Shown here: one piece after another, positions 12,001-63,609 of the stretch
How the letters are laid out: every line of letters starts with the position of its first letter
Position numbering within the stretch: the stretch's first letter is position 1
From: Crossaster papposus
Taxonomy: Eukaryota > Echinodermata > Asteroidea > Velatida > Solasteridae
NCBI GenBank assembly: GCA_037893245.1
Contig: JBAIAA010000026.1
Coordinates: 1-64,000, forward strand
Direction: 5' to 3'
DNA: 64,000 bases
Notes under the pieces: model-generated
What the model was told of the DNA's origin: nothing
Databases searched by the model: none
Seen by the model: only the letters and a program-made list of their open reading frames with translations
Made by a program: the position numbers and the translations under genes

Positions 12001-15000
12001 ATTTTATTTAATAGGCCTACTCAAATGTTTTAAGCTACAAATAAAGACGGCAGCTTTTCTAATACACTAAAGCCCTTAGATTTTCTGGATATTCTGACAC
12101 TCTTTCGGTGTTTTCGTTATAATTTAGGAACATCAAAATTTAGATACATCAACATTTTTGATACATCTAAATGTTGATATTTCGATATGATTAAAAAAGT
12201 GATATCGGCGATATCGATGTCAAAATAGTATTGAGTATTTGAGTAATATCGATATATCGACGGACGTTATCCAACATTTACACCATTTACAATTGATAAT
12301 TTGACTTGTGGCCAAGGATGCACTGATGCGCTTGTTGGTGTAGCAGTGCTATGGCGTTCCAGCACTAGATTTCATGGATCATTCATGTCATCATGGAACT
12401 CATTCACTCATCAGTTTTCTCTTTGTGACATCCACCATACTAAGGCTGTCAGTTCCCGGTTATTAAATTATCCGTGTAACCGTAAGTTTTGCGGTTACGT
12501 TTAACCGTAACCGTAACCAACGGTTAAACAAATTTAAAAAATAAATTAAAATAAAAAAGGCACGGGCCTGTAATGCATGTCTAATTAGCGCTGCTAATTT
12601 GCGCAGTTCTGCGATTGCTAATTGTCTGCATAAATTTGTGTAATGTAGGCCACTAGGCCGACTATATGTTAGATAAGCTATCATCCATACACAATTTGAT
12701 CACTTGTACTATTTGTGACCTGCTCCAACAAAACCATCCCTTTTCCCAACCAAAGCTCCAACGAAACCCAGACAAAGTTGACAATTGGTATGTTTTTTTT
12801 ATTTACAAAATAAAAAAAAAAAAATAAATAATAAAAATAAATAAAAAATAACCGAACCGGAAAAATGTAACCTTGTCACCGTTTAAACGGTCGGTTAACC
12901 GTGTAACCGTTGCAGGCATCTACCATACACATGCACAATGACGTACCTTGCTTTTGTATCCTTGGTAGAACATTGTCTGTGAAGTTGTCGTAGCTTGAGA
13001 TCTCTCCTTTCCATGAAGCAATGCCGACGTGTGCCTCATAGATCATAAGACCTGTAGAAGAATAGAAATGCTGCATTCAATGCCAGTAAATCTCAGGACT
13101 GTATCACCAAATGTTTGGCTCTAACATGCTACTATTCAATCTCCTCTGTCATGTTTATGTAGGTAAATTGTGTTGTCTATCCTATGTTGTTTCCATAATA
13201 ATACACAAACAATAATTATTTTGTACATGACTTTATTGGGACATTCCATAGGGTTTGTGTGCTTAATTCTAACCCCCTAGCCTCTCGCACTAGAAAGCAT
13301 ACATGTACAAACCTAACAAACTTCAACAACTGCACACAGGTTCATAGTTAACCTTAAAGGGTCCTAGAAATGAAAGATTATAACTGATTGAGTGATTTTC
13401 AGCTTATAAAAGTTTTATTTTTGGGTAATTAATTGGGGAAAAATAAAAATAAAGTGCTTTGGGGGACCGGCCCCGCCCCTAGAATGGTAGCTTATTAACA
13501 TGTAAAATTTGCATAATTGTGACGTACATGTATGTTCGGGAAGACTTTGACGTCGCGACCAGCGTGCCCGTGCATGCATGCATCATGTGCCACGCGTATC
13601 GATGCAAAATCATTCAGTCGATGGTCGACTCAAGTTATTGTCAAAGGAATTGTTCCAAGTTTTCTTATTTAAAAGAAAAATGCCAGCCAGATGTGTTACT
13701 GCAGGTTGCAGCAAGACCAACAAAGATGGCGTGAGTATGCACACATTTCCAACTGATCCAAAATATAGACGGATTTGGACTGCCAAAGTCCGGCTGACAC
13801 GGGCGAAGTGGACAGGCCCGACACCAAGCTCCACGCTATGCAGCGAACACTTTGAGCCGGATTTCTTCGAGCAAAATATGTACGAGTCGTTTGGCATAAA
13901 ATTTAAAAGGTTGTTGAAACCAACTGCAGTGCCAACAATATTTCGGCCAAGCCAAAAAGCTAAGAAACCAACCGAAAATCGGAGAGGAACTTTCGAGAAA
14001 CGAGGTTCACTCGCCATGTCTGAACAAAATCTGCTGCGTGCGTACCCGCGTGCATGGCATCTCGCATGTACACATGTACATGTACAGTGTGTACATGTAC
14101 TGTACACGTATGTACACGTACATGTATTTATGTAGGCGGATCGCATGCTGCACGCACGCCGTGAAGCGGCATCATACAGGGCTTAACTAGTGTCCAGACG
14201 TATTGTCAGGTACCAGACTATAATTTTGGTTTTTTTTGGGGGGGTTGCAGAATGATCGTCACAAACAACGCCACCATTTGTCAGTGTTTGAACATGTTAA
14301 TGAGGGGGCCAATTACATTTACGGTGATTAACCCCAATTAATGTCATTTTATAACATTTTATCACCCCTGGTTCTGTTACTTACACACCAAGGCACTTTT
14401 TAAATTATTAAACAGCAATTCTCCTCAAAATGTTTGCGTAGAACCTTTAACCCCCTAGGCTCTTGCACTAGAAAGCATACTAAACCCAACAATTAACTTT
14501 GACAACTGCACACAGGTTAAGTACTTATAACCCTAACTCCCTAGGCTCTCGCACTAGAAAGCATACCAAACCAAAATAAAGTTGTTTAACCCTAACCCTG
14601 CCAGACACAGCGCAGTGCATCAGTTAAAAAAGTCTGGTGCACTTTGACGGATTTAGCTGTCAAAAAGTGTGTAAACAACCAAAGTCTAAGACTATGAGAG
14701 CTACATGTAATCCCATTGAGCAATGACATAGATGAATCGTGCTGCATTCTGTGACCGCAGACTCTGAAGCAGTTTGACATTGAGATTTCTGACCTGATGG
14801 ATCTCGCTGCACTCTGCAGCCACGTCACTTTGACAACCGATGCAATCTGATGCATTCGGCAGGGTTTCTAGCCAAAATACCTTGGAGGGTTAGGGTTAAA
14901 GGGTTGTGGTTAACTCACAAACGGCGATCGATCTACATGTACCGGTATGTCAAGTGAGTACACAGACCTTCAGGCGTCTTAGGAACAGGATGTTTGAATT

Positions 15001-18000: not shown

Positions 18001-21000
18001 ATTTTTCAGCAGAAAAAAGTACTAAAAATATAAAGAAAGGTAATTGACAACTAACCTTGTAAAGTTATGTCAGAACAGAGGGGTGTCGGGAACAGAGGGG
18101 TGTCGGGAACAGAGGGGTGTCGGGAGCAGAGGGGTGTCGGGAGCAGAGGGGTGTCGGGAGCAGAGGGGTGTCGGGAGCAGAGGGGTGTCGGGAGCAGAGG
18201 GGTGTCGGGAGCAGAGGGGTGTCGGGAGCAGAGGGGTGTCGGGAGCAGAGGGGTGTCGGGAGCAGAGGGGTGTCGGGAGCAGAGGGGTGTCGGGAGCAGA
18301 GGGGTGTCGGGAGCAGAGGGGTGTCGGGAGCAGAGGGGTGTCGGGAGCAGAGGGGTGTCGGGAGCAGAGGGGTGTCGGGAGCAGAGGGGTGTCGGGAGCA
18401 GAGGGGTGTCGGGAGCAGAGGGGTGTCGGGAGCAGAGGGGTGTCGGGAGCAGAGGGGTGTCGGGAGCAGAGGGGTGTCGGGAGCAGAGGGGTGTCGGGAG
18501 CAGAGGGGTGTCGGGAGCAGAGGGGTGTCGGGAGCAGAGGGGTGTCGGGAGCAGAGGGGTGTCGGGAGCAGAGGGGTGTCGGGAGCAGAGGGGTGTCGGG
18601 AACAGAGGGGTGTCGGGAACAGAGGGGTGTCGGGAACAGAGGGGTGTCGGGAACAGAGGGGTGTCGGGAGCAGAGGGGTGTCGGGAGCAGAGGGGTGTCG
18701 GGAGCAGAGGGGTGTCGGGAGCAGAGGGGTGTCGGGAGCAGAGGGGTGTCGGGAGCAGAGGGGTGTCGGGAGCAGAGGGGTGTCGGGAGCAGAGGGGTGT
18801 CGGGAGCAGAGGGGTGTCGGGAGCAGAGGGGTGTCGGGAGCAGAGGGGTGTCGGGAGCAGAGGGGTGTCGGGAGCAGAGGGGTGTCGGGAGCAGAGGGGT
18901 GTCGGGAACAGAGGGGTGTCGGGAACAGAGGGGTGTCGGGAACAGAGGGGTGTCGGGAACAGAGGGGTGTCGGGAACAGAGGGGTGTCGGAAACAGAGGG
19001 GTGTCGGGAACAGAGGGGTGTCGGGAACAGAGGGGTGTCGGGAACAGAGGGGTGTCGGGAACAGAGGGGTGTCGGGAACAGAGGGGTGTCGGGAACAGAG
19101 GGGTGTCGGGAACAGAGGGGTGTCAGAACAGAGGGGTGTCAGAACATAGGGGTGTCAGAACATCATGTAGGGGTGTCGGTAGAGCAGTCACCCCATAAGT
19201 AATGGCCTAGGGTACTATAGGGCAGTCACCCCATTGTAATGGCCTAGGGTAAAATAGGGCAGTCACCCCATAAGTAATGGCCTAGGGTACTTACTGAAGT
19301 CTCCTCTCAGATAAAGTGTCTTTGCCGCAGGAGCCCATTGCCGGCACACAATACCACCGTCTGGGGTTTTGTTCAGTCCAAAATACTTATAGCCTGAAGT
19401 GAAGCAATCTAAACCACCCTGGTCGGCCTCAATGCCTCGCAAAAGCTTCTGCAAACAGCCATATCTGTAAAGAAGGATAGTCCTTTAGAGTTCAGATCAG
19501 GGAAAGTGAACTGAATTGCTTGTTTTTCATCCTTATTGCGCATGTGAATGTCAAAGAGGGAACAGTGCGATGACCCAGTCTTCACTACGTGATAATTACA
19601 GTACCAGGTTGGGTAATGACCGCTGTTAAAAGATTATGGTCGATAATTCTCAAACATAATGAATAATTTAGGTGATGCACGCCACTATGCACTAGGGATG
19701 GCGATATTTATTTTTTTCGTAGTTGATTTTTTTTTTCGCGATATCCCCGATATGGCGATAAAATCGGTAACAAATTAAGGCATAAAACAAATGTCGCCAA
19801 AGGTACGCTCAAACAGCTTTCGAACACCCCCAAAGCTTTCTGTGTACCGCCATGATCGTTTATCAAACATACATGTCGCAGCGTACGTACTTCCCCCCCT
19901 TGCGATATGGCAATAAAATGGGTCCTACTATTCACCGACAACACACCGACAACACGCACAGCACCGACAACACACCGACAACACATCCAAAACGTATTCT
20001 ATATTGACAAAAAAGTTATAGCACTGTGATATACACGATACAAAAGAGTGTCAGTGTGCTTGAGGTTACATTTCTTTTGTAAAAATGATGTTTTTATCAC
20101 GCAAAAAAAAATATCTTTAACCAGCACGGTCGTTGGCCGCCATCTTGCGTTTGCGCGGAGTTGGCCTATACCATTTTATGTACGGGTGTGCAGGAAATTA
20201 AATTATCATATCAAAAACAAGAGAGGGCGCCATGTACTGTTTTGTGCTGACTTAAAGTTAGTTGGAATGGAAGGTGCTTTGTTTTATATGGGGAGACAAC
20301 ATTTAACATTCGAGTACTTTAGTAGGATAATGTTCATAGTGATTCGATTTCTCTTTTTGATTAATAATTCCAGTTAATTTACCGGTTGTATTAAAAAAGG
20401 TATGTATTTTGATCGACACCAGCCCCCAAATTTAATGTTTAATATATTGTATACCATGACTGAAACGAAAACATAAAAGTTTGTTGAAATACTTGCCATT
20501 TCCTACATTAGTTTTATAAGAACATTATATTTCTATCTTAATTTATTACTTAGTTGTATTAGAAGAACAAAAATCATTAAGTAAAATAAAACACAGGAAA
20601 TACCAAAGTTCAAAATGTTTGATTTAATTTGATTAATGTTTGCAACCGGACACTACTGTTTTTTTATTATCTTAATTTAAATGAAGGTCAATCAGTGCAA
20701 AAATGTTTGAAAGCCAGTCATTTATTTATAGGCCTATTCTTAAAATTTAAAATTTAAAAAAATTACGAGCACACATTAGTAATAGTAGGCTATACTAGGC
20801 CTAGGGGCCGGGGGCCTACTACTAATACTATTAAAACAATTTAAATAGAGAACGGGAACAATTTATTTAGGTAATTAATAAATTTGATTTTGATTAAAAT
20901 TAAAAAATAAATAAAACAAATTGCTAATTGTCCTACCGTTACTCGAATGCTAAATGTCAAACAAAGCATAGTAGGCCATGTCATATCAAAACCCACCTTC

Positions 21001-32112: not shown

Positions 32113-33691
32113 ATGCTATGGAAAACTCTGAAGGAGGTACTCCCTAAGAAACAAAAAACTGTACCGAATTCGATTACTTCCCCAAATGGGGAAAATATTG
32201 ACAATATCGCCGACATTGCTGATACATTAAATGAACACTTTTCAACAATTGGCAAGCGTACTGCTGGAAATTACCCTTTGCGTGAACTTGAAATAGATGA
32301 CAATACTGACGCCTCTATATTTGATTCTGTTGATGAAGATTGCGTAGTACCTAACATTACAGAAGAGTTTGTTCGAAAGCAAATATCATCCATGTCGGTT
32401 GGGAAAGAAACAGGTCCGGATGGAATTAGTGTTAGAATGATTACAATTGCTTCACCTTATATCATTAAATCTTTAACTCATATTTTTAACCTGTCTATAA
32501 GATGTGAGCGATACCCTAAAGATTGGAAACATGCTTTAGTAACACCAATTCACAAGGGAGGCGATAAATGTAGTACAGGTAACTATCGTCCTATTTCTAT
32601 ACTGCCAATTATCTCTAAGATTTTAGAAAGATGGGTGCACTCATCGGTATATAGATACCTTGATGAAAACAATCTGATTCCTAGTTGCCAGTCAGGATTT
32701 AGACCCCTGCACTCAACTGAAAGCACCCTACATGACTTAACAAACAAGTGTTTTGCGGCCATGGAGAATGGACAAGTTACAGGCAGTGTGTTTATAGACC
32801 TCAGTAAAGCATTTGATTGTGTTGATCATGAAATATTACTAAAGAAACTAGAAAGGATGAACATGTCATCTTCTGTAATTAATTGGTTTAAGTCGTACCT
32901 AAGTGAACGTAGTCAGTCTGTAAATATTAGCGGCACCATATCAAAGGTCCTGTCCGTAAACACTGGTGTTCCGCAGGGGTCGATACTAGGTCCACTTTTA
33001 TTCATTGTTTATACTAGTGATCTTCCATTTTGTATTGCCCCAAACTGCAACTTATTTATGTATGCAGATGACTCCACACTAACGTGTAGCTCCTCCAACA
33101 TTAATATAATAGAAAGTAGCTTAAATACAGCTCTTACTAGTTTTCACAGCTGGTGCGGAAGAAACAAGCTAGCTTTAAATGCCACCAAAACCAAATGCAT
33201 GCGTATTGGTACTAGGCAGAAAATATCTAATGTTAATTTAAATGTAGGCATTGCTGGTAGTCGTATTGAAAATGTGAAGTCTTATAAATGTTTGGGTGTA
33301 ATTATTGATGAAGCATTAAGTTGGGGCCCACATGTCGAATACGTAAGAAAAAAGGTGGTGTCTAAATTAGGTATACTAAGCAGAATCCGTGATTGTGTTC
33401 CTCAACACAGCTTGCACACACTATTTGTAAGTCTAGTTATGCCAACATTAGAGTATTGTTGTACTGTGTGGGGAGGAAGGTACATATCTCACGATAATAT
33501 GTTAAACAAATGTCTCAAAAGAGCCGCGCGGATAATCCTTAAATGTACCTTCCTCACCCCTTCAGAGGATATGTTTGCTCGTCTTAATTGGGCTCCTTTT
33601 TCAAAAAGAGTCAAGTCAAAAAAGGCTATTCTTGTCTTCAAAAGTATCAACAAAATGACTCCTTTGTACATGACAAATATTTTCAAACCAC
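32113..33691 (+). CDS. LINE-A reverse transcriptase
   Basis: Upstream linker ends in KSNSSMLWKTLKEVLPKK. RT motifs in order: KETGPDGIS (about 32407), NYRPISILPIISKILE, FIDLSKAFDCVDHE (about 32790), GVPQGSILGPLLF (about 32965), catalytic FMYADDS (YADD at 33061-33072), YKCLGVIIDE, then the thumb (TLEYCCTVWGG). No in-frame stop before the LINE-B insertion at 33692. The last codons of the frame beyond 33698 are translated LINE-B tail. Endonuclease and ORF1 are absent because of 5' truncation. The C-terminus (WNNLPEQLRTLDSLSTFKSE) is at 37720-37881, after a likely 1-base frame change. Confidence 0.9.
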
Positions 33692-33834
33692 TTACAATAA
33701 TAATAATAATTATTATTATTATTCATGGTTTATTTTTCTATTCTTTCGCCGCCAGAAGCGGAATTGCAGAATAGTCACATACAAATTTAAATATTAAAAT
33801 GACACTAAGATGTATATAACTTAATAACTTGGGA

Positions 33835-34829: not shown

Positions 34830-35765
34830 TTATTTGTGTATTGTTTTAGTCTGGCACTTTCCGGACCGTAACATATAGATGATCGGACTATTTTGGTACC
34901 GCTTAGTCTTACACAGTGGTAAGGAGAATGTATTGGAATTTCTAAGATTCCTATGATGAATATCTCTCCTACTTGGTGGCAGCCAACTGCTGAAGTCTTT
35001 AGATGCTATTAGCGACTGAAAGAATTTCATACACAATTGCTTCCTCCTTTCTACCAGAGTTTTGAGGTACTTACAGGCGATCAGTGCATTTTCATACCCC
35101 ATGTACCGTCTGCCCATCATGATCTTACATGCTCTGCGTTGAATTTTCTCGAGCATCTCATTTTCTCTAGCGGTTAGCCCGGAGTGCCAAGTAGGAGCAG
35201 AATATTCAACTATGGGTCTAACATAAGATGAATAAACTGTGATTAGGTCATGTAATGGCGTATTAAAGTGCTTTAATGTCTTTATCACATGGAGTCTGCC
35301 ATTTGCCTTTTTTAGAATGGTTTTAATGTGGGTGTTCCATTTTAAATCTTTGGTTATTTGCAGTCCCAAGATCTTTACGACATCGACAGCCATGAGTGGA
35401 ATGTTGTTGATTGTTAATGGTGGTCGGTTTAGGGGTTCCCTTGCAAAAGAAACTTTCATGGAGGTACATTTGTCTGCATTGAGTTTCATGTGGTTGTCCT
35501 GAACCCACTCGGCAAGATTGTCAAGATGGCCTTGCATTTCCGATGGGGTCTTGTGGTTACTCTGCTCAACCAATGTCAGATCGTCAACATACTTCAGCAC
35601 TGTGGGAGGGATATCAGCTACTGCATCATTGACAAGTGCGAGGAATGCAAGGGGGCCAATGCGTGTTCCCTGAGGGACTCCACCATTGAGTGGTTTCCAG
35701 TCACTAGTTACACCACGGTAGCGGACACACTGCTCTCTGTCACTCAAGAAGCTAGCTATATCCAT
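34830..35765 (-). CDS. LINE-B C-terminal reverse transcriptase (after frameshift)
   Basis: Continues with IASFLSDREQCVRYRG, GGVPQGTRIGPLAF, the catalytic KYVDDLT (YVDD at about 35580-35591), MKLNADKCTSMKV and the thumb (VYSSYVRPIVEYSAPTW, MLEKIQRRACKIMMG). Ends at a normal stop. A 2-base insertion near 35757 is the only disabling lesion I see between the two parts. Confidence 0.88.
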   Translation of the reverse strand: MDIASFLSDREQCVRYRGVTSDWKPLNGGVPQGTRIGPLAFLALVNDAVADIPPTVLKYVDDLTLVEQSNHKTPSEMQGHLDNLAEWVQDNHMKLNADKCTSMKVSFAREPLNRPPLTINNIPLMAVDVVKILGLQITKDLKWNTHIKTILKKANGRLHVIKTLKHFNTPLHDLITVYSSYVRPIVEYSAPTWHSGLTARENEMLEKIQRRACKIMMGRRYMGYENALIACKYLKTLVERRKQLCMKFFQSLIASKDFSSWLPPSRRDIHHRNLRNSNTFSLPLCKTKRYQNSPIIYMLRSGKCQTKTIHK

Positions 35766-37686
35766 GTTACGACAAACGGGCGAGCTCCAAGGTTGACGAG
35801 TTTGTTGATGAGTATGTTGTGATCTACACAGTCAAAGGCTTTACTGAAGTCTGTTATTACAACTGTGCTGATGTTACCCCGTTTATCCGCATTTCTGTGA
35901 AGGGTGTCCAACAGTTTTACCAAATAGTGAGTTGTTGATACTCCTTTGCGATTCCCGTACTGGTTTGGGTCAATCCTGCTGTGGATATCATCCAGTAACC
36001 ACTCTGTGATGAAACCCTCAGCGACCTTAGCGAGGTGATCAGTCAGTGATATGGGTCTCAATTTATCCCAGGTAGCTGGTGTAGTCTTGGGAGTTGGGAC
36101 TACAACTGCTTTTTTCCACTGTTGTGGGACGACTCCTTCACTATACGAGTTGCTAAGAATGTCTGTTAGCGGGTCAGTGAGCTCACAAGCAAACTCACGA
36201 ATTATCCTTGCAGGTACGCCATCTGGACCAGCAGATTTCCCCACTTTAATCTTCCTAAGCGCCGCATAGACTTGGTAGTTCTGCACTCTTAGATCAGACT
36301 GAGGGACCAGACAGTGTACTGGTACTGATGCAATATCAAGTGGTTTGAGGTGACTTGATATAGAGGTAAAATGGTCGTTGATGCAATTTGCTACATCCTT
36401 CGAGTTGTGCTCATTAATGCCAGGTGGAGGGTTAATGATGGTTTCCTTTGGCGTCCTATTTGTCATAATCCGAATTTGTTGATGCCATTCAGCAGGATTG
36501 GCTTTCTTGTGTTCCTGAACGCGATTGGTGTAGTAATCTCTCTTACTTTTGTCTATCATGCGTCGTACCTTGTTGCGAAGCTGCTTCCATCTCGGGGAAC
36601 GATGCTCACTGTGGAAGATTTGCTGTCTTTCCACGATGAGTTTTTTAATGTACGTCGTCATCCATGGCTTATCCTCTGAATGAACTTTAATGAGTTTGGT
36701 TGGAAAGTAGGTATTTATAGCCCCGTGCAGCGTATCGTAAAAGGCGGAGCACTTATCTGCAGCAGTCGGCTTAGTATAGACCTCTTCCCAATCATGGTTG
36801 ACAATCCATGAACCAAAATCACGGATTGTAGAGTCTTTCATAGGGCGAACAATCCGAGTGGATGTTGTATTAGGAGTTGATCGCGACTTGGGGGCCCAAA
36901 GTACTGAGGAATGATCACTCATTCCGATGGGTGAGCTGATTTCTGGTGAGCAGTAATGCTTGGCTGTATTGGTGATAATCTTATCAAGAATTGCTTCATT
37001 GCGAGTTGACTGCTTAACAACTTGGGAAAATCCAGTTCCTGTGCACAGTTCACTTGTGTCCAGTCGATTGATGTCACCCAATATAGTGACACCAGCATGA
37101 GGATTGTTAGTATTGATGTAGTCAATGCCATCCAGGAGATGATCTATTAGGTCGCGCTCATGTGGATTACCAGGTGGTGAGTAAACTACAGCATAGAAGA
37201 GTACAGATGTATCACGAGGTAAGCGATGGGGTCTCGCCTTCATCCACATCACTTCAAGATGGTCAGGAACCTTGATGTCAGGGGATTGGGGGCACAAAGT
37301 CTCCCGTATGTATAACGCTACTCCTCCACCACGTTGTAAGCTCCTACACTTTGACTGAAGGTGGTATCCATCAATTTCAAATTGTTCAATTGGTGTGTTA
37401 GGGTTAAACCAAGTCTCAGATATACCAGCTACATCTACATTGAGATCTAGTAATATTGTTCTGAATTCATCAAACTTGTTCACCAGGGATCGTGGATTGC
37501 ATAAATAAACAACAGGTAGGGTTGTTGTTCGTTGATCTTTTGTTCCACTTGGTAATGTAGCTAGGTTTGCACGGCAAACACCTCGGGTGTAATTGTTTGA
37601 TAGGTTGACTAGACGCACAGTTATATGAGCTTTAATAGTCCTTTGTTTATTTTTACCTGCTCTACAGCCACGACGTTTAGGAACAT
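35756..37686 (-). CDS. LINE-B endonuclease and N-terminal reverse transcriptase
   Basis: Endonuclease (APE type): YLCNPRSLVNKFDEFR, VAGISETWF, GGGVALYI, TILGDINRLD, IGMSDHSSV. Then a linker and the start of RT: KSAGPDGVPARI, LRPISLTDHLAK, VITDFSKAFDCVDHN. The frame is closed by TAG at about 35756 where an extra TA (ATATA) shifts it; the continuation is in the next frame. Open sequence upstream of 37686 belongs to antisense LINE-A and is not part of this protein. Confidence 0.88.
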
Positions 37687-38720
37687 TTACAATACATGCT
37701 TTTTCGCGAAACAAGGCAATCAACCCACACGGCACTGAAAGTTCCTTTCGCCAAAAAAGAATGCTACGCCACAAGTTTCGCTGTGAGTGGTGCAAATATT
37801 TGGAATAATCTGCCCGAACAATTGCGAACATTGGACTCATTAAGCACATTTAAATCGGAGCTCCGACATGTCATCCGTTAGATATTATGCCAATTGCGCT
37901 GATCTACGCGAGTTAGAACTTGGTTGCCACTATAATGTGGAGCCGGATAGGAATTTCCCCTTCTTATTTTCCCCCAAAAGGGTTTTTTTTTGCGGGTTTT
38001 CGCCTATCTCGTAAATCAGAATTAGTATTAATGTTTTGAATTCCTGTAATATCCTTGTATTTATAATATGTACTGTTATTTTATTTGATGATGTATGCAG
38101 GGCCCCAATGAAAACCAGTTTTAAACTGTTTGGGCACACCCTGGGTAAAGAAATGGAATAAATAAATAAATAAATAGTCCAGACAGTGATATCTTCTTCA
38201 TCCTGTTGCATTATGCACATAAATTGAGGCCTCTGATCATCTTTTTTGATACCGGTAGTGGAGCAAATCGAAGGCTGTTGAACATCAGCGATATCGCTGA
38301 AGACTGAAGACCAAAATACTGCCAATCGCTACTTGGCATATACTGCTTTACCGGCGAGGACTGCAACTGTGCCTTCAAGGGAAAGGGTAAGAAAACCCCT
38401 CTGACGAAGCTTGAGAAGAAGCCACGGTATCAAGACTGTTTTGCCAAATTGGGCGATAGCTGGGAAGTAGATGCGGCGATAGTAGTTGAGCTAGAGGAAT
38501 TCGTATGCTTCCTCTATGGATTCCCAAGGGTCAAAGAAGTTAATACAGTGAGGGCCCTCATGCTTAAAAAGATGGTTGGTGAGGGCGGGGCCATCAAGAG
38601 CTCATCTAAAGTGGATATGTCCAGGCTTCCACCATGCAAGCAGTCACTGGTACCTCACATCAAGCGTGCCAACTATAGGGCAGCGCAGTGGAAGAGGTCA
38701 GATGTACCCATTCAGGAAAT

Positions 38721-42106: not shown

Positions 42107-42262
42107 TTTCTTTCTACATACTTCCGTAAGAAAGCTAATTTCTTTTCAAATTCTACCTTATTAGAAAACATAATATAAGAAATATAATATAAGAAATACT
42201 CGGACAAGAGTGTTTGACTTTGGTGAACAATTTGGCAGTGTGCACGCTGGTACACCTTGCTT
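42107..42262 (-). repeat. YR element terminal repeat B2
   Basis: Direct repeat of B1 at 44037-44185 with small indels; forms the 3' end of the element. Outer edge at TTTCTTTCTACATA. Confidence 0.8.
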
Positions 42263-42427
42263 TTTGTTTGTTTATTGAACAATAACTGTTTAAATTCGTT
42301 TATACATGTGTCATGTTTACACTTCTAGTGCTCGTGCCCCCCAAAAGGTCGCTAAAATGCGACAATTTTATATATTGTGCATGTATTATACAGGCGAGTC
42401 TTATTAATTAAGCTAATCAAAGCGAAC

Positions 42428-43510
42428 TCAAATATCGAGTGATTTGGAAGGTATAAGCTTAAGGAATGGGTCTGATTTGATGTAGGCGTTGCGGGATTTC
42501 TCCGTTTTCCATCTTCCATGTTGTGCAACTAGGAAAGGGGAAACGCATGCGTTACTCGCTGCCGTGGCACCACCCGACCTCAGACTATGTAGGCCGCAGA
42601 TTGAGACGTCGGGACTATCGGTTTGAGGGCTTCTAGGACGATCTCTCGTGTCCTGGTGTAGCTTAGCTTCTTTGATGTAGCAACGAGACCAGTTTTTGTG
42701 GCCGTCAAAGTTCTAAGAACGGGTGACTCCGAGTTGGGAGGATCGCCTAAAGCGTCGAGGTAGCGGCGAGCTACTGTGACTGGGCACGTTGGTTTAAGAA
42801 ATTTGGCTATGGTTACGTCATTTCCTTGACGAAACTGACCCGTTTTGCTTTTAACCAAGTGTATAATAAGCCGGTCTGCGGTGAAGGTGCAGTCTCTGCG
42901 TCTAATGTTATTAATGTCGTCGAATCTTAAAGATCCGGCGTAGCTTATAAAGCATACAAAGAGCAAACGGAGATCTGCCAGGGTCGCATGAGCGTGCCCG
43001 TGTGTTGCCAACAGCTTCTTTAAAATGTCAGGTGTTATTGGCTCTTTCCGAACGGTTGGAGTTGCCGTCAGGCGTCTGTAGTCTTGAAGTGCATTGTTGA
43101 CCATGGAGTTGTCCGTTGGTGAACTCAGGCCGGCCAAGTTATGAACCCACTTCACTGCTGCAGCGGTGGCGTCGCCAACTGTCTTTCCTCCGGAGGTGGT
43201 GGCGAGATGACACAGGTAAAGGGAAAATTGATAAGGTTCAACCGGAAAACCCGTATTCCTCGTTTTGACTTTGCCCAGATAAGCCATCTTTTCCAAATTG
43301 CTCGATATTTACGAGTTGTGGACGTTGCCTTAGCGGATAAAAGCAGGCGAGGTAAAGTGCGACTTGCTAAAACTTTTACGTCAGGATCTGTTATACTGTT
43401 CTCCGCAGATGTCCATATTTCTGTTGAAAGGAAAATAGAACAATTAACAACTGCAAGGGATTTGCCTGGTGACAAATTAAAAGGCGGTCCCCAAAACAAC
43501 CTGGCACTCT
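42428..43510 (-). pseudogene. Tyrosine recombinase of the YR retrotransposon
   Basis: N-terminal core-binding part TSTTRKYRAIWKRWLIWAKS (43152-43544 frame), then after a frameshift near 43260 the catalytic part: SYAGSLRFDDINNI (first catalytic Arg) and LIIHLVKSKTGQFRQGND. A second frameshift near 42600 leads to the rest: GLHSLRSGG (His-x-x-Arg), HGRW and the AYIK Tyr nucleophile, ending with a TGA at about 42428-42430. The R-H-R-H/W-Y set is therefore all there, but spread over three frames. Confidence 0.85.
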
Positions 43511-43898
43511 TTGCCAAGAATTTGCATAACGTGCACAAATGCATAATTAATTTCTTAACGACTCGGTTGTTGCATTAGAACGTTATAAACTAGCATAAAT
43601 GTTGCTCGACTAATAATAGTGCTCTGCGACTGGCAGAGAATGAAGTATAAAAAGTAAGTAACTGGAGAAAATATGTACAACGTTTAATACAATGATATTC
43701 GGTGTCGACCGCCAGCCTGATGATGAATCGCCAGTGCTCAGTGGCCACGAAAAAAAAAACCGGTGGAGGAAACGTGCATGTACGTCCCGGGCGGTCGGCG
43801 GAGGCGTACTCCCCCTTGAACCGAATATTCATTGAATATTTATACATGTATATATTTATTTATTGTTAATTATAAAGGGCGGGAATGATTGGGAAGGG

Positions 43899-44035
43899 AA
43901 AGGCTGTATTGATGCGTGAACGAGAGTGCGCTATCACTGTAAGCGCTCAGCTTATATGCTGGTGGTTACGTAACCACCAGGTATGCAAGTGTGGAGACAC
44001 TTGCACCTGTCGTTCGAAAACGAAAAGAAATTTCA
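43899..44035 (-). repeat. YR element internal repeat A2
   Basis: Direct copy of A1 at 48486-48621 with few differences; contains GTGTGGAGACACTTGCACC and a palindromic CTGGTGGTTACGTAACCACC. Abuts B1, as expected for the circular junction. Confidence 0.85.
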
Positions 44036-44036
44036 C

Positions 44037-44185
44037 TTTCTTTCTACATACTTCCGTAAGAAAGCTAATTTCTTTTCTAATTCTACCTTATTATAAAACA
44101 TAATATAAGAAATATATTATAATACAAGAGTGTTTGACTTTGGTAAACAATTTGGCAGTGTGCACGCTGGTACACCTTGCTTTGA
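44037..44185 (-). repeat. YR element internal repeat B1
   Basis: Direct copy of B2, adjacent to A2. Confidence 0.85.
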
Positions 44186-44329
44186 GAGGCGCAAATGAAA
44201 GGGGAAGAGGTTTGTTTGTTTGTTTTTTGTTTGTTTGTTTTTGTTTTTTTAACTAGTAATGCCATAACTATATTAAACAAGCTTTGCTTAAATCGGCGGA
44301 AGCTTAAATTCTCAATTTCTGAAGTATTA

Positions 44330-44606
44330 GGGGCTTCAAATCGCCCAACACTACAAAAGGGGCTTCAAATCGCCCAACACTACAAAAGGGGCTTCAAATC
44401 GCCCAACACTACAAAAGGGGCTTCAAAACGCCCAACACTACAAAAGGGGGTTCAAAACGCCCAACACTACAAAAGGGGCTTCAAATCGCCCAACACTACA
44501 AAAGGGGCTTCAAATCGCCCAACAATACAAAAGGGGCTTCAAATCGCCCAACACTACAAAAGGGGCTTCAAATCGCCCAACACTACAGAGGGGCTTCAAA
44601 TCGCCC
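44330..44606 (+). repeat. 29-bp minisatellite, about 9.5 units
   Basis: Unit GGGCTTCAAATCGCCCAACA plus CTACAAAAG, repeated almost without change inside the YR retrotransposon between the RNase H end and B1. It opens a spurious plus-strand reading frame (44195-44707). Confidence 0.92.
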
Positions 44607-44837
44607 GCGGATATCGAGGCTTTAATTTGCCTGGAAATCTATGCATCTTACCTACTTTAGGCACTTGTGGCAATAGCCGAGACTGGACGAGCAAAAATCG
44701 TTATTAGATCTCCTTAGGGGTCGTTTATGGTCGATCCGCAGTGATAAAGACAAGAACGTAGGTGATTGATTAAAAATACTGCTAATCTGTATTGGGGGAA
44801 GAGTGAACGAGATTTGTAGCAAGCGCCAATCTACAAT

Positions 44838-45560
44838 TTAAGTGTTGAAATGACAACTGTCTGGACAAATGAAAGGCCAAAAAAATGCGGAGGGCCACTT
44901 GGGGATTACCAAGGTACCAGTGCCCTTCGACTTCTCAAGATACTTGATAGTGGGAACAATTAGGTTTACTGGGGGACACCAGTAGTTATTGTCATTCGAC
45001 CACGGTTGACAGAAAGCGTCCATACCGTCAGTCCCACTACACCAAAATCTAGAATTGAACTTATGCAATTTTCGGGTGGCTGGGGAAGCAAATCTATCGA
45101 TCGTGTGGGGCCCCCATAATTTGTTGACAATGTCAAAACTGGACTGGTCAATTAACCAGTCATCATAGTCAGAAAATGTACCGATACTGTCGGCTATGGA
45201 ATTCATACTCCTTGGTACCCATTCATGACAAATTACGAAATCGTATTTCATCGACAGTTTAAAAATGGACAGCGCTAAATCGTGCAAATCGGATGTCATG
45301 CTTCCATGTGCCATAATGCGTGGGACGTTTGAATTGTCTGTGAACCATCGGATTTTCTGATGGGATAGTTCTTCGCGCAGGTTTAGGGCCATTCTGTATA
45401 CGGCGGCTATCTCGCGCCATGTGGAGCTTCTATAGGCTCACTCTATGACCAAGTATCATATACCTTTAAGTCGGGATGTCCGACTACGTAGCCCCCGTAG
45501 CCAGTGTCGCTCGCGTCCGAGTAAATTGCAAGAGAGGGGGTGTGCTGATGTTTGATAGAA
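44838..45560 (-). pseudogene. RNase H domain of the YR retrotransposon
   Basis: Begins with AIYSDASDTGYGGYV (near 45530) containing the first catalytic Asp, an intervening stop/frame change, then IRWFTDNSNVPRIMAHGS, CHEWVPRSMNSIADSI, LWGPHTIDRFASP and LVIPKWPSAFFWP, an order typical of DIRS/Ngaro pol C-termini. Confidence 0.88.
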
Positions 45561-45659
45561 AACCCGTTTAGTGAATCAACGTTGGAATGCCAAAATTCCA
45601 ATTATTGAATTACGCAAAATGGAATCGGCCCAGAGTCAAACCATGTGGATCTGGCTTCG

Positions 45660-46740
45660 ATCGTTCTATACATGTTGCGAGTCATAAGTCTCGCCACGGG
45701 GCCGATGGCGATTGACATTAGCAATTATCTGACCGGTGATGCTGGCTAGAGACCTTACGTGAATTGGGTTATCCCGAGATTGAGTGGACAGTACGAGGTC
45801 TATAGAATGCTTGAGCTTGTCTGCTTTCTTGAATGGCACGGAAAAATTCATTGAAATCGAGTCGATGAAAATGCCCAGGAATAATATTTTAGTTGCGGGT
45901 TGCCAAGAACATTTGGTTTTAGAGAGAACAAAACCACTCTGGGTTAGTGCGTTTTTAACCACCTGCGCGTTACGTAATGCGGATTCCAAGTTGGGGGAAA
46001 CAATTAAACCGTCGTCAATGTATGGGAACGAAAGAATGTCCTGTAACCGCCAGTGGTAAACGAGTGGCCTAGTCAGTTTTGTAAAGAGGTGGCAAGCTGA
46101 TAATAATCCGAACGGTAGGACGCGAACAATGAAATAACGGGTTGAATTGTCTGCAAAGCGATAAGAGAATCCAAAGTATTTTTGGTGCGGGGGGGAACAT
46201 GTCGACGTGGTGGTAGCCGGACTCTAAATCAAAACTCAAGTAATATTGATTGTACTCTAGCACTTGCGAGATATGTTTCAAATCTTCGTACTTAAATTTG
46301 GTTTTATATACGAATTTGTTTGGGTGACGCAGGTCTAATACCAGCCTTAACTTATTCCTGTTTGCCACTGTTAAGGGGTTGCAACGATATGGGGGCGTGT
46401 CGATTTCAGCTATGCAACGTTTACGTAACAATTATACGATAACCGATTAGACAAATTCCGTGTGTTCTACACTGGATCGATTGTTTGGGGCGTAAAATGG
46501 GGGCGGATCGAACATGAACGGTACCTTGTAACCCAACTCAATTACGTCAACAATAAAACCACTTGCTTTCAAAACAGTTTTCCAGTATATCAATCTAGGT
46601 CTCAATTTACCTTGCACTCCTTCAGGGGGACTGCAATCGCCATTGCTGTGTTCCCAGTCCCTAATCCCTAGGTGGTTTAGTTCCCTGCTGTCCTGATCGC
46701 TGAAGAGCTCGGAGAGAGGGGCAGAGTGATCTGACGTGGC
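45660..46740 (-). pseudogene. Reverse transcriptase of the YR retrotransposon
   Basis: GKLRPRLIYWKTVLKAS and VIELGYKVPF at the N-terminus; PLTVANRNKLRLVLDLRH and YLSFDLESGYHHVD in the fingers/palm; a frameshift at the G-run at 46186-46192; then RVLPFGLLSACHLFTKL and catalytic FPYIDDGLIV (about 46000-46030); then SGFVLSKTKCSW, ILFLGIFID and the thumb. A stop at 46447 separates two frames. Family assignment rests on the RT-RNase H-YR combination. Confidence 0.85.
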
Positions 46741-46818
46741 CTCTAAGCGCGCACTGGAAGCAGATGCGGTTATCTGTGGCGTCTGTATGTAACCGAGTTG
46801 TTTCCGGTTAGGACACAC

Positions 46819-47719
46819 GGGTCAGTGACGATTAAGGAGTTCGGAGAGTGTATATGATCTGTGAGATAATCCGGGTTTTATTGTCTTTGGTTGAAATGTG
46901 AATTGAAAAGTTAATTAAACCCGAAAAAAACGACAGTCATTGATGGTGGTGAATTCTGAAAAATAGAATTAAATACATATAATTAAATATTTGTACAATG
47001 AATTTCAATAACTTTACAATTATTGTACATTATTCAATTTATATTTAGGGATCAACAGTGCATCCCTTTAAACATTAAAACTGATGTGTAGCAAATGTAG
47101 CTTCATTTGCGCCTTGTAATAATAATATTACCAAAACAGTCTACCGCTTAAAATAAAACAGATACGAACTATAGGTGAATGACGTACCCCATGTCACGTT
47201 GCCGGCCATATAACTATAAGGCTCAAAAGAAGAGAGCACGGTCACTCGTATGACAAGTAAAGGTTGCTGCAATATAGAAATACACGTATTTACAATAAAT
47301 ATCGGCGATAGATACGTTTGAGTTTGTTATTAATTAAGAATGTAATTTGGAAAGAAACAATTTACTGTTATAATTATAAATGTTTGTTTGTATAACAGCC
47401 AGATTTTAGCACAGTCATTATTTTGCAACATTAGATTCATTCCATAGAAGTAAACTATACGAATACAAATAAAATCTCATTAATGTTGTTACAGTCAAAG
47501 CACTTACCGGAAAAGCTGTGTGCTCTACACCTTTGCCTCCGTTTGCCTGATGACAGATGATCGGCAAATAAGGATAATATTAGCCGTAATTAAGCTAAGG
47601 TGTTCTCTCGGCAATCGTCGAGAGAGAAGTGTTCGTTTACACCTCCTTGAACGAACGAGAATATTTAAAAAGAATGTCCGGCATGTCAACGCCCCAAACA
47701 AGAATTTTTAAAGCGCCCG
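46819..47719 (-). other. Non-coding spacer between GAG and RT
   Basis: No coding segment recognised. In intact relatives GAG and RT are close or overlapping, so this 0.9 kb may include a later insertion or decayed coding sequence. Confidence 0.4.
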
Positions 47720-47859
47720 CTAAAAGTTACGCAACAAATTAAAACTACGCTGGTGGCGCTGTTTAACAAGCTTATTACAAACCGCTGGCGGCGCTGTTTC
47801 GCAAGCTTTGCCACACGCGCGCCATGTAATGTATACAAACAAATATACATACTGTACTG

Positions 47860-48442
47860 TACAACACAAAAACAATGTCGGGACCTGGCAGCATACGTCT
47901 GGCTGGTCACATGTAGTAGGGACAAAAAACGGCTGCTGCATATTTACGAAGCCAGGCGTTGCCCTGGTAGGATATGGTACGGTGGTGACGGCCTTCGTGC
48001 TGGGGCGCTTCGTGGATGGCTTTTTGGCGGCAGCTGCTTTCTCGGCCTTTCTAATGCGCTTTTCGTCGTCGGAATTTTCGGCGAGGTCGTCAGCTATGTA
48101 TTCTTTTACAAGACCCCAACCGAGATCCGATCGATCTGCCAAGCGAATTAGCTTTTGCCTGTCCTTAGTCTCCTTGATGGCCACTTTAAGGCTGGTCTTG
48201 GCACTGTCGATGTCCAAAAGTTCTAAGGATTGCAACGATGCTTCGATGAGGGCCAGGGCCTTATCGCAATGGTTGTATTGCTGCTGATTGCCTTGTTTCT
48301 TGAATGTGGGGACGTCCGACAGGCGCTGTCTTTTGCAGGCTGACTGCACGCGAGTGTCCAAGGAGTTGGAGAGGTCGCGTATGGCCTGGAGGACTTCCTG
48401 GTTTCCGCCAGTGGGTTGGTTGGTGTCGTCGTCGTCAAACAT
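47860..48442 (-). CDS. GAG-like protein of the YR retrotransposon
   Basis: Starts MFDDDDTNQPTGGNQ at 48442. Has VPTFKKQGNQQQYNHC, KETKDRQKLIRLADRSD and LGWGLVKEYIADDLAENSDD, then KKPSTKRPSTKA, a pattern I associate with first-ORF proteins of DIRS/Ngaro elements. About 190 residues before homology fades; the frame is open to 47720. Upstream open codons to 48487 belong to the A1 repeat. Confidence 0.8.
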
Positions 48443-48485
48443 TGTACTTGTAGCGGTGTATGGGTAGCGTACTGAAGAGCGCTGC

Positions 48486-48621
48486 AAAGGCTGTACCGAT
48501 GCGTGAACGAGAGTGCGCTATCCCTGTAAGCGCTCAGCTTATATGCTGGTGGTTACGTAACCACAGGTATGCAAGTGTGGAGACACTTGCACCTGTCGTT
48601 CGAAAACGAAAACAAATTTCA
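48486..48621 (-). repeat. YR element terminal repeat A1
   Basis: Forms the 5' end of the element; direct repeat of A2 (43899-44035). GAG begins about 45 bases inside it. Confidence 0.85.
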
Positions 48622-60681: not shown

Positions 60682-60960
60682 TTAATAGTAGGATTTCAAC
60701 AAAGTAGACTTATGTACATGTTTAAAAACGGGAAGATTTTTCGAAGTTTTAAGTTGTTCATTTAACGAATTCCAAAGCTTGGGTCCCTCATATTTGACTG
60801 TTTTGTGCGTAAGAGAAGTACGAGCATATGACACGTGAAAATTGGCGGCTTGGCGAGTAAAATGAGAATGAATGTCACGGTTGTGGGTAAATATATTTGT
60901 GATTGAAGATGGTAAAGTATTATGGGTAGATTGATACATGAGAGACCCAACCTGATAGTA
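60682..60960 (-). CDS. LINE-C C-terminal segment in shifted frame
   Basis: MYQSTHNTLPSSITNIF then HSHFTRQAANFHVSYARTSL, VKYEGPKLWNSLNEQLKTS and FKHVHKSTLLKSYY, the usual end of CR1/L2 ORF2 proteins (compare WNNLPEQLR in LINE-A). It belongs to the preceding ORF but lies one frame away. Confidence 0.85.
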   Translation of the reverse strand, partial: YYQVGSLMYQSTHNTLPSSITNIFTHNRDIHSHFTRQAANFHVSYARTSLTHKTVKYEGPKLWNSLNEQLKTSKNLPVFKHVHKSTLLKSYY

Positions 60961-63609
60961 TACATATCTTTAACTTTAAGTGTTTTATGTTTACAAAAGA
61001 AGGGATTTGTATGTGAATTAAAGTCAGCAAAATTAATAGTGCGTAATGCCCGCTTTTGTAGAAGTAACAGCCTGTTCAATTTAGTAGTTGAACTGTTTCC
61101 CCAAGCAAGTATTCCATAGTTAAGATATGATAAAATTAATGAATTATAAAGAGAATCTAGAACACTAGTAGGAACAAAGTTTTTTATCTTATTAATCACA
61201 CCAATATTTCTAGATATTATTTTGCATAAATGGTCAATATGATTATTCCATTTTAATCCAGAGTCGATAAGCAAACCCAAAAATTTACAGCAATCCGTTT
61301 TTTGGATAACAAAGTTGTGAATTTTTACTTCACAAGGAATTTCAGTGGCAGAATTGCTGAACAACATGAAGTTGGTTTTTGTAATATTTAGAGATAGCTT
61401 ATTGACATTAAACCAATTAGCAACAGATTTGAGTTCAATATTGACCTTATTGATAAGATAAGTAAGGTTACTATGAGAACAGAATATGTTTGAGTCATCG
61501 GCAAACAATATAAAAGAGAGTTCCTCAGAGGATTTGATAAAATCATTAATGTATATTAAAAAAAGCAAGGGTCCCAATATGGATCCTTGAGGTACACCAT
61601 GTGAAAGGTTTCTAGAGTTTGAATTAATACCATTAATAGATACATACTGGGATCTGTTAGAGAGGTAACTCCTAAACCACTGAAGAGAAATTCCTCGAAT
61701 ACCATAATACGAAAGCTTATACAATAAAATATCGTGGTCAATTGTATCGAACGCCTTTGAGAGGTCAAGAAATATCCCCAGTGTGTGCTCAGAGTCATCA
61801 ATTGCTTCAGAAACCTTATCAATAAAATCTAAAAGGGCATGAGAAGTTGAATGTTTACTACGGAATCCATATTGGGATTTAGACAAAATATTAAATTTAT
61901 CAAAAAATTTAATAATACGTGCATATACACATTTTTCTAAAATCTTAGAAAAACATGAAAGTAATGATATAGGTCTATAATTATTGACACTGTTGGGATC
62001 GCCTTTTTTATAAACTGGAATAACTTTAGCAATTTTCAATTGAGATGGTACAACACCAGTCATAAAGGAAGCATTTATTATATGTGTAAGTGGTTCGCAT
62101 ATGGCTAAAATAGAATTTGTAATAGTAATCATGCTAATTGAATCGTGACCAGAGCTCTTTTTATTTTGTAGGTTATTAACTATGTCAATAACTTCATATT
62201 TATTTACTGGGGTTAGAAATAATGATTTATTATTTGGATTAGACAGGTACTCTGTAAAGCCAGGGGAAGATTGACAAGGTAAGATTTTACTAGCAAGATT
62301 TGGACCGATATTGGTAAAATAATCATTGAAACAATCAGCAATTTCATTAGGATTCAAAATTATATTTAAAATACAGTTAATTACTTTCCAAGTGTTCCGA
62401 ATACTGTTTTTTTCCTTTTCAAATTGTTGGGCATAATACATTTTTTTAGAAGCACGCAAAAGGCTAGTAAGTTTGTTTTTGTATTGAGTATACTTATTTT
62501 TGCGTAGGGTTGTAGGATTAGACAAATATTGACGATAGAGTTTATTTTTCTTATTAATTGATTTAATAAGTGCAGAAGTTATCCATGGAATATTTGATGA
62601 TTTTGTACGACTGCTATTGCATTTTTGAGATTTGAGTGGAATGTCTTTATCATAAAAATAGTTAAATCTATCCATAAAGGTATTAAATGCAACTTCTGGA
62701 TTATCGCAGCAGAAAACATCATCCCAATTAAGACTAAGTAGGTCCTCGTTAAATCTTTGAAGATTGAATTTAGAGAAATTACGATTAGGAAATGGATTGT
62801 GATTAATGTTATTGGAATCATTCGAGTTTGGGGACTGAATGTACATAAAAATTGGCAAGTGATCAGTAATATCAGACAATAAGATGCCAGATTTGGGACA
62901 GGGTAATATATTACAAAATATATTGTCTATAAGGGTGGTGGAGGTATCAGTAATACGGGTAGGTTTATCAATTAATGGGAGAAAAGAAAGGGTCGTTAAT
63001 AAATCAATGAAGGACTGGGAATTAGAATTTGAATGATTGAGCAAGTTGATGTTAAAATCGCCAGTGATAATACAAGTTTTTTTTATGTGGGAACATACAT
63101 GTTGAAAAGTGGCCATAAACTCATCATGAACAATGGAAGGTGCTTTGTATACAACACCTACAATGATATTTTTAGATTTTGGATTAGAAATTTCAACAAA
63201 TAAAGATTCCAATGTGTCATTAGAAATATTTAGTTCCTCTCTAGCAATAACATTCAATTCAGTGGAGATATAAAGGGCAACCCCACCCCCAACTTTAGTG
63301 CCGTGTCTATTGTTCACAATCAGCTCATACCCAGGCAAGGAATAATAACTATGGGGAACAGTTTTTAACCAAGTTTCAGAAAGTGCAATAATAGAGAATT
63401 TATGTTTTATTGAATTCAGAAGAATTTTCAGGTTTTCAAAATTTTTGTTGAGACTCCGAATGTTAATATGTAATACGGAAACATCCAGATCATTCGTCAT
63501 CTTAGGAAACTGTTCAATAGAGTAGTAATTAGAATTATTTGATAAACTAAACAGATTGTTGGTGTTAATGTCATCTTCATCAATTAAACGATTAGGGGCA
63601 GCAATATTT
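60762..63609 (-). CDS. LINE-C endonuclease and reverse transcriptase
   Basis: The frame opens at 63609 after a stop; the first ATG is at 63500 (MTNDLDVSVLHINIRSLNKN). APE-type endonuclease: IIALSETWLK, GGGVALYI, CIITGDFNINLL, DITDHLPIFM. RT: KKSSGHDSISM, NYRPISLLSCFSKILEK, FLDLSKAFDTIDHD, GVPQGSILGPLLF, catalytic FILFADDS (FADD at 61494-61505), FLGLLIDSGLKW, SYLNYGILAWG. Over 900 codons without a stop, which suggests recent activity. Near 60962 a single base change in length moves the C-terminus into another frame (next entry). Confidence 0.93.

Follow-up and report, generated by a model that had tools for sequence, protein, structure and literature searches.

A tyrosine recombinase retrotransposon of two head-to-tail units, the halves of which also occur alone

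The first-pass annotation of the window, the whole stretch of 64,000 nucleotides analysed here, described on the minus strand a tyrosine recombinase (YR) retrotransposon whose recombinase lies between the A2 and B2 repeats, and suggested that this order might mark a distinct lineage. Is the order genuine, is it new, and how would such an element move? The origin of split direct repeats and of YR retrotransposons is at issue.

Repeats, ends and coding regions

The order A1, gag, RT, RNase H (RH), B1A2, YR and B2, read from 48621 to 42107, was borne out by BLAST of the window against itself and by joining the flanks of the element; a methyltransferase (MT)-like tail between RNase H and B1A2, a nested LTR-like insertion and the stand-alone halves described below had been missed. 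A1 and A2 were 96.4 % identical (E 2e-60), B1 and B2 91.1 % (E 2e-54), and the matches of B1 and A2, the latter beginning at 44035, were separated by the single base 44036. Among the matches listed for the joined flanks, 31 of 41 spanned the insertion point uninterrupted (from query base 3 at most to base 592 at least, 79-91 % identical), thus the stretch from 48621 to 42107 is an insertion with these ends. Two units, each complete from an A to a B repeat, follow one another head to tail: A1...gag-RT-RH-MT...B1, MT denoting the putative MT-like tail, and A2...YR...B2 (Table 1).

Table 1 Features of the window element and the evidence for them
Feature	Positions	Strand	Evidence or remark
A1 repeat, 5' end of the element	48486..48621	-	self-BLAST, joined-flank matches; TATAAG at 48543-48538 by eye
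gag, 5' part, from ATG to nested insertion	47912..48442	-	reading frame; gag of relative L073
Nested solo-LTR-like insertion, 1,124 bp, TGTGACC...GGTTACA, TACA flanking both sides	46788..47911	-	foreign to the element proper
gag zinc knuckle CX2CX4HX4C, downstream of nested insertion	46721..46762	-	by eye
RT, several frame pieces	45666..46550	-	weak Pfam match in the window; RVT_1 in L073
RNase H region (approximate)	45190..45540	-	Pfam matches
Methyltransferase-like tail (approximate)	44838..45189	-	Dam profile on the homologous stretch of relatives
29-bp tandem repeat, 9.6 copies	44329..44606	-	
B1 repeat, end of unit 1	44037..44183	-	self-BLAST, close copies
A2 repeat, including the G that starts unit 2	43899..44036	-	self-BLAST, close copies; TATAAG at 43956-43951 by eye
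Tyrosine recombinase, frameshift-broken	42428..43544	-	frames; Cre similarity of relative L073
B2 repeat, 3' end of the element	42107..42263	-	self-BLAST, close copies, joined-flank matches

The long gap between gag and RT is the solo-LTR-like insertion, which was missing from all 11 other places read there. Protein fragments of the window gave only weak Pfam matches, none above the cut-off (RNase H-like, E 0.0013; RT, E 0.1). The close relative L073 presented RT (RVT_1, E 1.2e-13) and RNase H (E 2.8e-4); its YR was similar to Cre (E 2e-7) and had no integrase match in Pfam. The gag zinc finger was recognized by eye in the window element and in L073, where zf-CCHC_4 matched weakly and below the cut-off (E 0.016). 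The Dam profile matched the homologous tail in four relatives (L090, L086, L082 and L077; E 6.7e-5 to 0.037, all below the cut-off) and exceeded the cut-off in some of the further elements; neither the window protein nor L073 was matched. Frameshifts interrupt YR and RT of the window copy, and this copy is inactive.

Separate insertions of the two halves

Each half of the element was also found inserted alone in the same genome, with the same ends. The family of the window element (family 1) contained four A-YR-B insertions (L019, L021, L025, L037) and four A-gag-RT-RH-B insertions (C444, C217, C676, C456); the deleted copy C876 is in neither count, L030, L033 and L036 were left unclassed, and other families contributed more A-YR-B units. 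Comparison of L019 and L021 with empty paralogues revealed clean insertion without target duplication: the flanks were joined without duplication in 40 of 40 listed rows for L019 and in 22 of 43 for L021. In family 1 the junction, AAAGAAA followed by GTGAAATTTC, corresponds to both unit ends put together. Single units occurred among near-identical copies (L019 with 99.8 % and L021 with 99.6 % identity to composites), and one was situated inside a homogeneous histone array, the other listed units of which were empty.

On balance, we regard the window element as an inactive PAT-like YR retrotransposon with the layout of nematode-form Pat1, built of two head-to-tail units, which would be released singly by recombination at the B/A junction. 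RNA starting in A1 would be reverse transcribed, and B1A2 would serve as the template for linking B2 with A1. The resulting circle would contain two similar B/A junctions, and YR would insert it without target duplication. YR itself would be transcribed from a promoter in A2. TATA-like sequences are present in the A repeats of several families, thus the proposal of the first-pass annotation that YR is expressed from A2 is plausible from the sequence. Recombination between B/A junctions, either within the circle or after its integration, would yield circles of one unit each; their insertion, as A-YR-B or as A-gag-RT-RH-B, would explain the stand-alone halves.

A possible, though less probable, account sees an ordinary retrotransposon of Pat1 layout, the single units being remnants of deletions after insertion, comparable to solo LTRs. 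Homologous recombination between A1 and A2 would leave A-YR-B, and between B1 and B2 A-gag-RT-RH-B. The repeats are short (about 137 and 150-165 bp) and 91-100 % identical, both reciprocal products were found, four of each, the YR-only units are scattered among the composites as expected of independent deletions, and the RT-only C444 pairs with the composite C819 (support 0.94-0.95). However, single units among very young copies, including the one in the histone array, require a fast, though conceivable, deletion between short repeats. The equal frequency of the halves (4 and 4) is allowed by junction recombination as well as by deletion.

We consider it unlikely that A-YR-B represents a Crypton-like DNA transposon in its own right, partnered in the composite with a retroelement cassette bearing the same ends. 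The precise ends, the lack of a target duplication, the occurrence in several families and the TATA-like sequence in A are in line with this, and no composite of the L032/L033 family was seen among the loci read. Crypton DNA transposons, as described in the sections of PMC3212892 used here, resemble the stand-alone unit in carrying only YR and in simple ends, and movement as a circle is proposed here for this unit; compared by description, A-YR-B differs in being bounded by the A and B repeats of a retrotransposon and in having a YR unit with up to 99.8 % identity to the retrotransposon's own. Against independence, the YR-only units formed no clade of their own in the tree of family-1 copies, the RH and YR trees were without significant conflict that would indicate an exchange of halves, and the absence of an RNase H match holds only among the matches listed. 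Equally doubtful is a stable association between two mobile cassettes that share their ends, a Crypton-like A-YR-B with its own promoter and an A-gag-RT-RH-MT-B, joined and separated by YR at the B/A junction and each moving alone. If true, it would represent a surviving intermediate in the descent of YR retrotransposons from a Crypton plus a retroelement, an origin that has been proposed (PMC4157794, in the sections used here). Composites, an outgroup of standard order and both lone halves with the same ends in one genome render a separate mobility of the halves directly testable.

A swapping of halves between families was not borne out: the RH data reject the grouping of the window element with C278 (AU, p 0.0002), but the grouping obtained with RH is compatible with the YR data (p 0.32), thus no conflict between the two is demonstrated.

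The layout in published elements and in relatives

The PAT-like assignment was made by structure, matched to published descriptions of layouts. According to the sections of Szitenberg 2014 (PMC4157794) used here, both nematode-form Pat1 and Kangaroo have their internal repeats between MT and YR, so that YR after B1A2 is not a new order and is standard for PAT, not for Ngaro; the stand-alone halves are less expected. Nematode-form Pat1 shares with the window element the split direct repeats, a zinc finger in gag, RT, RNase H and internal repeats upstream of a YR of the same direction; layouts were compared by description. Its MT, which precedes the internal repeats, has a putative counterpart in the MT-like tail, for which the match is weak in the relatives of the window element. 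Stand-alone halves are not mentioned for Pat1 in these sections. Kangaroo (Volvox, PAT group) has the same position of the internal repeats, but an inverted YR and a gag without zinc finger. With the window element, a structural type described from nematodes extends to an animal that appears not to be a nematode. Two observations speak against the reading as a PAT-like element that releases its halves: YR-only units of family 1 are not a clade, and the Dam profile matches weakly, with nothing in L073 or the window protein.

A Ngaro element with internal repeats moved upstream of YR is very improbable. Ngaro elements have the organization A1...B1A2...B2 with gag, RT, RH and YR (PMC4157794, PMC8547959, as far as the sections used here describe them), split direct repeats are common to Ngaro and PAT, and the weak Dam-like tail was unmatched in two proteins as stated. 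However, PMC4157794 places B1A2 of Ngaro downstream of YR and denies an MT domain, whereas the internal repeats of the window element are upstream of YR and Dam matches to the tail were obtained for four relatives and for further elements, part of the latter above the cut-off.

Visibly damaged as the copy is, its rearrangement or misassembly is ruled out by the clean insertion ends and by the shared order B1-A2-YR-B2, which was present in 14 of the 18 close copies read and in three loci of other families (L027, L028 and L038). The split direct repeats A1...B1A2...B2 likewise occur in the close copies. Queries with single proteins, the reach of which is confined to close relatives, retrieved none from viral contigs.

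Among the matches listed, the distance from RNase H to YR was longer in relatives with a YR identity of at least 48 % than in those below, a cut chosen after the distances were seen (149 of the 150 listed rows were used per match list, the second match to one C585 copy being omitted from each). The outgroup family L078, with a YR 39 % identical, had the usual order with the repeats after YR; it was the only such outgroup found and the sole one whose repeats could be placed, L077 having no direct-repeat pair within 4.1 kb, only a palindrome. The longer distance and the position of YR before B1 in L078 support a distinct layout group in this genome. To this extent the idea of a distinct lineage was upheld, although the layout as such had already been published for Pat1 and Kangaroo.

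Structure and ends of the window element

In the window element, gag, reverse transcriptase (RT) and RNase H lie between the repeats A1 and B1, and the tyrosine recombinase (YR) between A2 and B2. The B1 and A2 matches are parted by a single base, G at 44036, in the self-comparison.

Location of the window element and its split direct repeats
Feature	Position	Strand	Evidence
Window element	48621-42107	minus	one element, 6,515 bp
A1/A2 direct repeats	48621-48486 and 44035-43899	minus	self-comparison, 96.4% identity, E <1e-50
B1/B2 direct repeats	44183-44037 and 42263-42107	minus	self-comparison, 91.1% identity, E <1e-50

For the ends, 300 bp from either side of the element were fused and searched against the same genome (1.02 Gb, 1841 contigs). 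Thirty-one of 41 rows spanned the query from base 3 or earlier to base 592 or later at 79-91% identity; five others crossed the junction and ended early, four were the two copies themselves and one was a short piece. The joined flanks thus occur uninterrupted elsewhere: the element sits in a dispersed repeat, and the ends proposed in the first-pass annotation were borne out by the 31 rows running through the insertion point. On contig C468 an element of equal length (6,515 bp) lies between the same flanks, and the 3' flank is common with a copy on C19; the three copies were treated as one insertion.

The window copy is inactive, because YR and RT are each broken into several frames. Its gag is split by a solo-LTR-like insertion of 1,124 bp (46788-47911; TGTGACC...GGTTACA, TG...CA ends, TACA on either side), which was absent at all 11 other places read there. 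Since the C468 copy has the same total length, it presumably carries this insertion too. Between RNase H and B1, a tandem repeat with 29-bp units (44329-44606) varies in length among copies, and the stretch containing it is longer in the RT-only copies C444, C217 and C456.

Repeat order in related copies

When the genome was searched with the YR protein, 854 candidates were obtained, of which 150 were scored as matches. The repeat order was checked in 18 close copies with sequence, the 17 closest YR matches and the copy L037. In 14 of them B1 abuts A2, followed by YR and B2; in four, A has no preceding B1. The 14 are not independent and represent about seven insertions, as L009-L011 have a common 3' flank, with L023 similar, and L014-L018 share another. 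In other families B1 abuts A2 upstream of YR in L027, L028 and L038; a B2 end was looked for in L028 and not found. The order B1A2-YR-B2, claimed initially for the window element, recurs in about seven close insertions, and B1A2 before YR in these three copies.

Among the matches listed, an RNase H match lies within 3 kb upstream of YR in at least 50 of 111 relatives with a YR identity of 48% or more (distance 1175-2362 bp), and upstream in at least 14 of 38 relatives below 48% (343-1014 bp); relatives without a listed match may still have RNase H. One of the latter group, the outgroup copy L078, has a perfect 149-bp direct repeat in two copies, both downstream of YR, the usual published order. 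In a second one, L077, a palindrome but no direct-repeat pair was found within 4.1 kb.

Stand-alone units and their possible origin

The window element is a composite of two units head to tail, and each unit also occurs alone. Within family 1, the close family of the window element, four A-YR-B copies lie between unrelated DNA (L019, L021, L025, L037). The reciprocal half, A-gag-RT-RH-B (RH, RNase H) with B followed by non-element DNA, was found in four copies (C444, C217, C676 and C456, the last classed from its B side alone); C217 and C676 are broken up by other DNA. Other families contain A-YR-B without B1 in L026, L029, L031 and L032, and the sequence common to L026 and L029 starts no more than 12 bases from A and stops at the B end. 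In family 1 the B|A junction has the sequence AAAGAAA|GTGAAATTTC, and the family's stand-alone units start with GTGAAATTTC (L037: GTGACATTTC) and end with AAAGAAA. Units of other families among those read start with GTG and end with AAGAAA. The window A1 is an exception, with C preceding TGAAATTT.

Of the four A-YR-B copies of family 1, two were confirmed as insertions by searches with joined flanks. Joined flanks of L019 matched all 600 query bases in 40 of 40 listed rows, with 100% over 599 genomic bases. For L021 the whole query was matched in 22 of 43 rows, six of these at 100% over 599 bases. The difference of one base, read from these lengths with the alignments themselves not displayed, suggests that the odd base is a 5' G, so that the insert would be G-A...B in a target without duplication. 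The joined flanks of C444 gave 41 rows, two of which cover query bases 5-600 and another two roughly bases 80-597.

L019 (C1191, ~112-114 kb) lies in a tandem histone array with a basic spacing of ~6.2 kb, the other 40 listed units being empty there. By eye, we take the flanking frames to be histones H2B and H2A, the H2B frame having an ending that resembles those of echinoderms. L032 (C1218, ~66 kb) lies within a ~219-bp satellite whose units hold sequence resembling the A start. The DNA directly after B2 of L012 (C31, ~2.445 Mb) resembles the B end of a different family; one element may have inserted into the end of another. In L056 (C259, ~1.272 Mb) two YR-unit fragments stand head to head round one A repeat in an inverted arrangement.

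In models of split-direct-repeat elements, the repeats anneal during reverse transcription and join the ends, and YR integrates the joined circle. The joined circle of a window-type element would hold two B|A junctions, and recombination between them would release one circle per unit, matching precisely the two kinds of single-unit insertion observed. We infer this recombination as the source of the single units. Models of such elements have been published, as referred to in PMC6681497. Homologous recombination after insertion, A1 with A2 or B1 with B2, could also have generated the single units, and predicts the same products. However, single units occur in several families and among very young copies, L019 and L021 being 99.8% and 99.6% identical to composites; we therefore lean mildly towards insertion as single units. 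In a tree of 18 YR units the YR-only units are dispersed among composites. In small trees (gag and RT, 9 rows each; B1, 17 rows) the RT-only C444 groups with the composite C819 (support 0.94-0.95, gag and RT), and placement of the other RT-only copies is weak.

Candidate promoter, protein domains and known elements

A scripted search (raw counts) located TATAAA or TATATA in A, 83-93 bases from the unit start, in six of 17 units, namely the six of other families, and in none of the 11 of family 1; by eye, family-1 A has TATAAG at a similar place. Downstream follows a TCTCGGTT-like block in other families and a TCTCGTT-like block in family 1. These sequences make a transcription of YR from A2 plausible. 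The long YR frames of L026, L027, L029 and L031 are without an early ATG, thus a spliced 5' exon is possible.

Domains were read in the close relative L073. Its gag has 243 aa with a knuckle CX2CX4HX4C (zinc-finger profile weak, E 0.016), and profile searches identified RT (E 1.2e-13), lying across two overlapping frames, and RNase H (E 2.8e-4). YR matched Cre over 275 residues (E 2e-7), pairing Arg, Lys, His-x-x-Arg and Trp, which we take to be the Cre catalytic residues. The Pfam integrase profile had no match in the L073 YR and matched the outgroup YRs (L077, 3.3e-8; L078, 6.6e-6). The tail after RNase H matched Pfam Dam, a DNA N6-adenine methyltransferase, below the cut-off in L077 (6.7e-5), C278 (7e-4), C13 (0.004) and C401 (0.037), and not in the L073 tail or the window protein. 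Dam matches from a genome-wide search fell on the same tail in additional elements, among which C31:2008008 and C528:166874 exceeded the cut-off. We take this tail as the putative methyltransferase (MT) domain of DIRS/PAT elements.

According to Szitenberg 2014 (PMC4157794), internal repeats lie between MT and YR in nematode-form Pat1 and Kangaroo, and after YR in Ngaro. In structure the window element has the features of nematode-form Pat1, its putative MT being weakly supported. Ngaro is given as A1-[ORFs]-B1A2B2 in PMC8547959, which mentions isolated AB repeats. In the portions of literature searched, neither A-YR-B nor A-gag-RT-RH-B was found described as a stand-alone half; a prior description is possible.

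Elsewhere in the window, non-LTR (LINE-like) RT frames were recognized by eye at 32113-33774, 34830-37849 and 60762-63500, as was a frame resembling a THAP zinc-finger domain at 13578-14135. A long tandem repeat at 18044-19202 is open in three overlapping plus-strand frames. Contig C8 differs from the other contigs listed in carrying many near-identical RT frames of ~442 aa; it may be of bacterial origin, with the frames belonging to group II introns.
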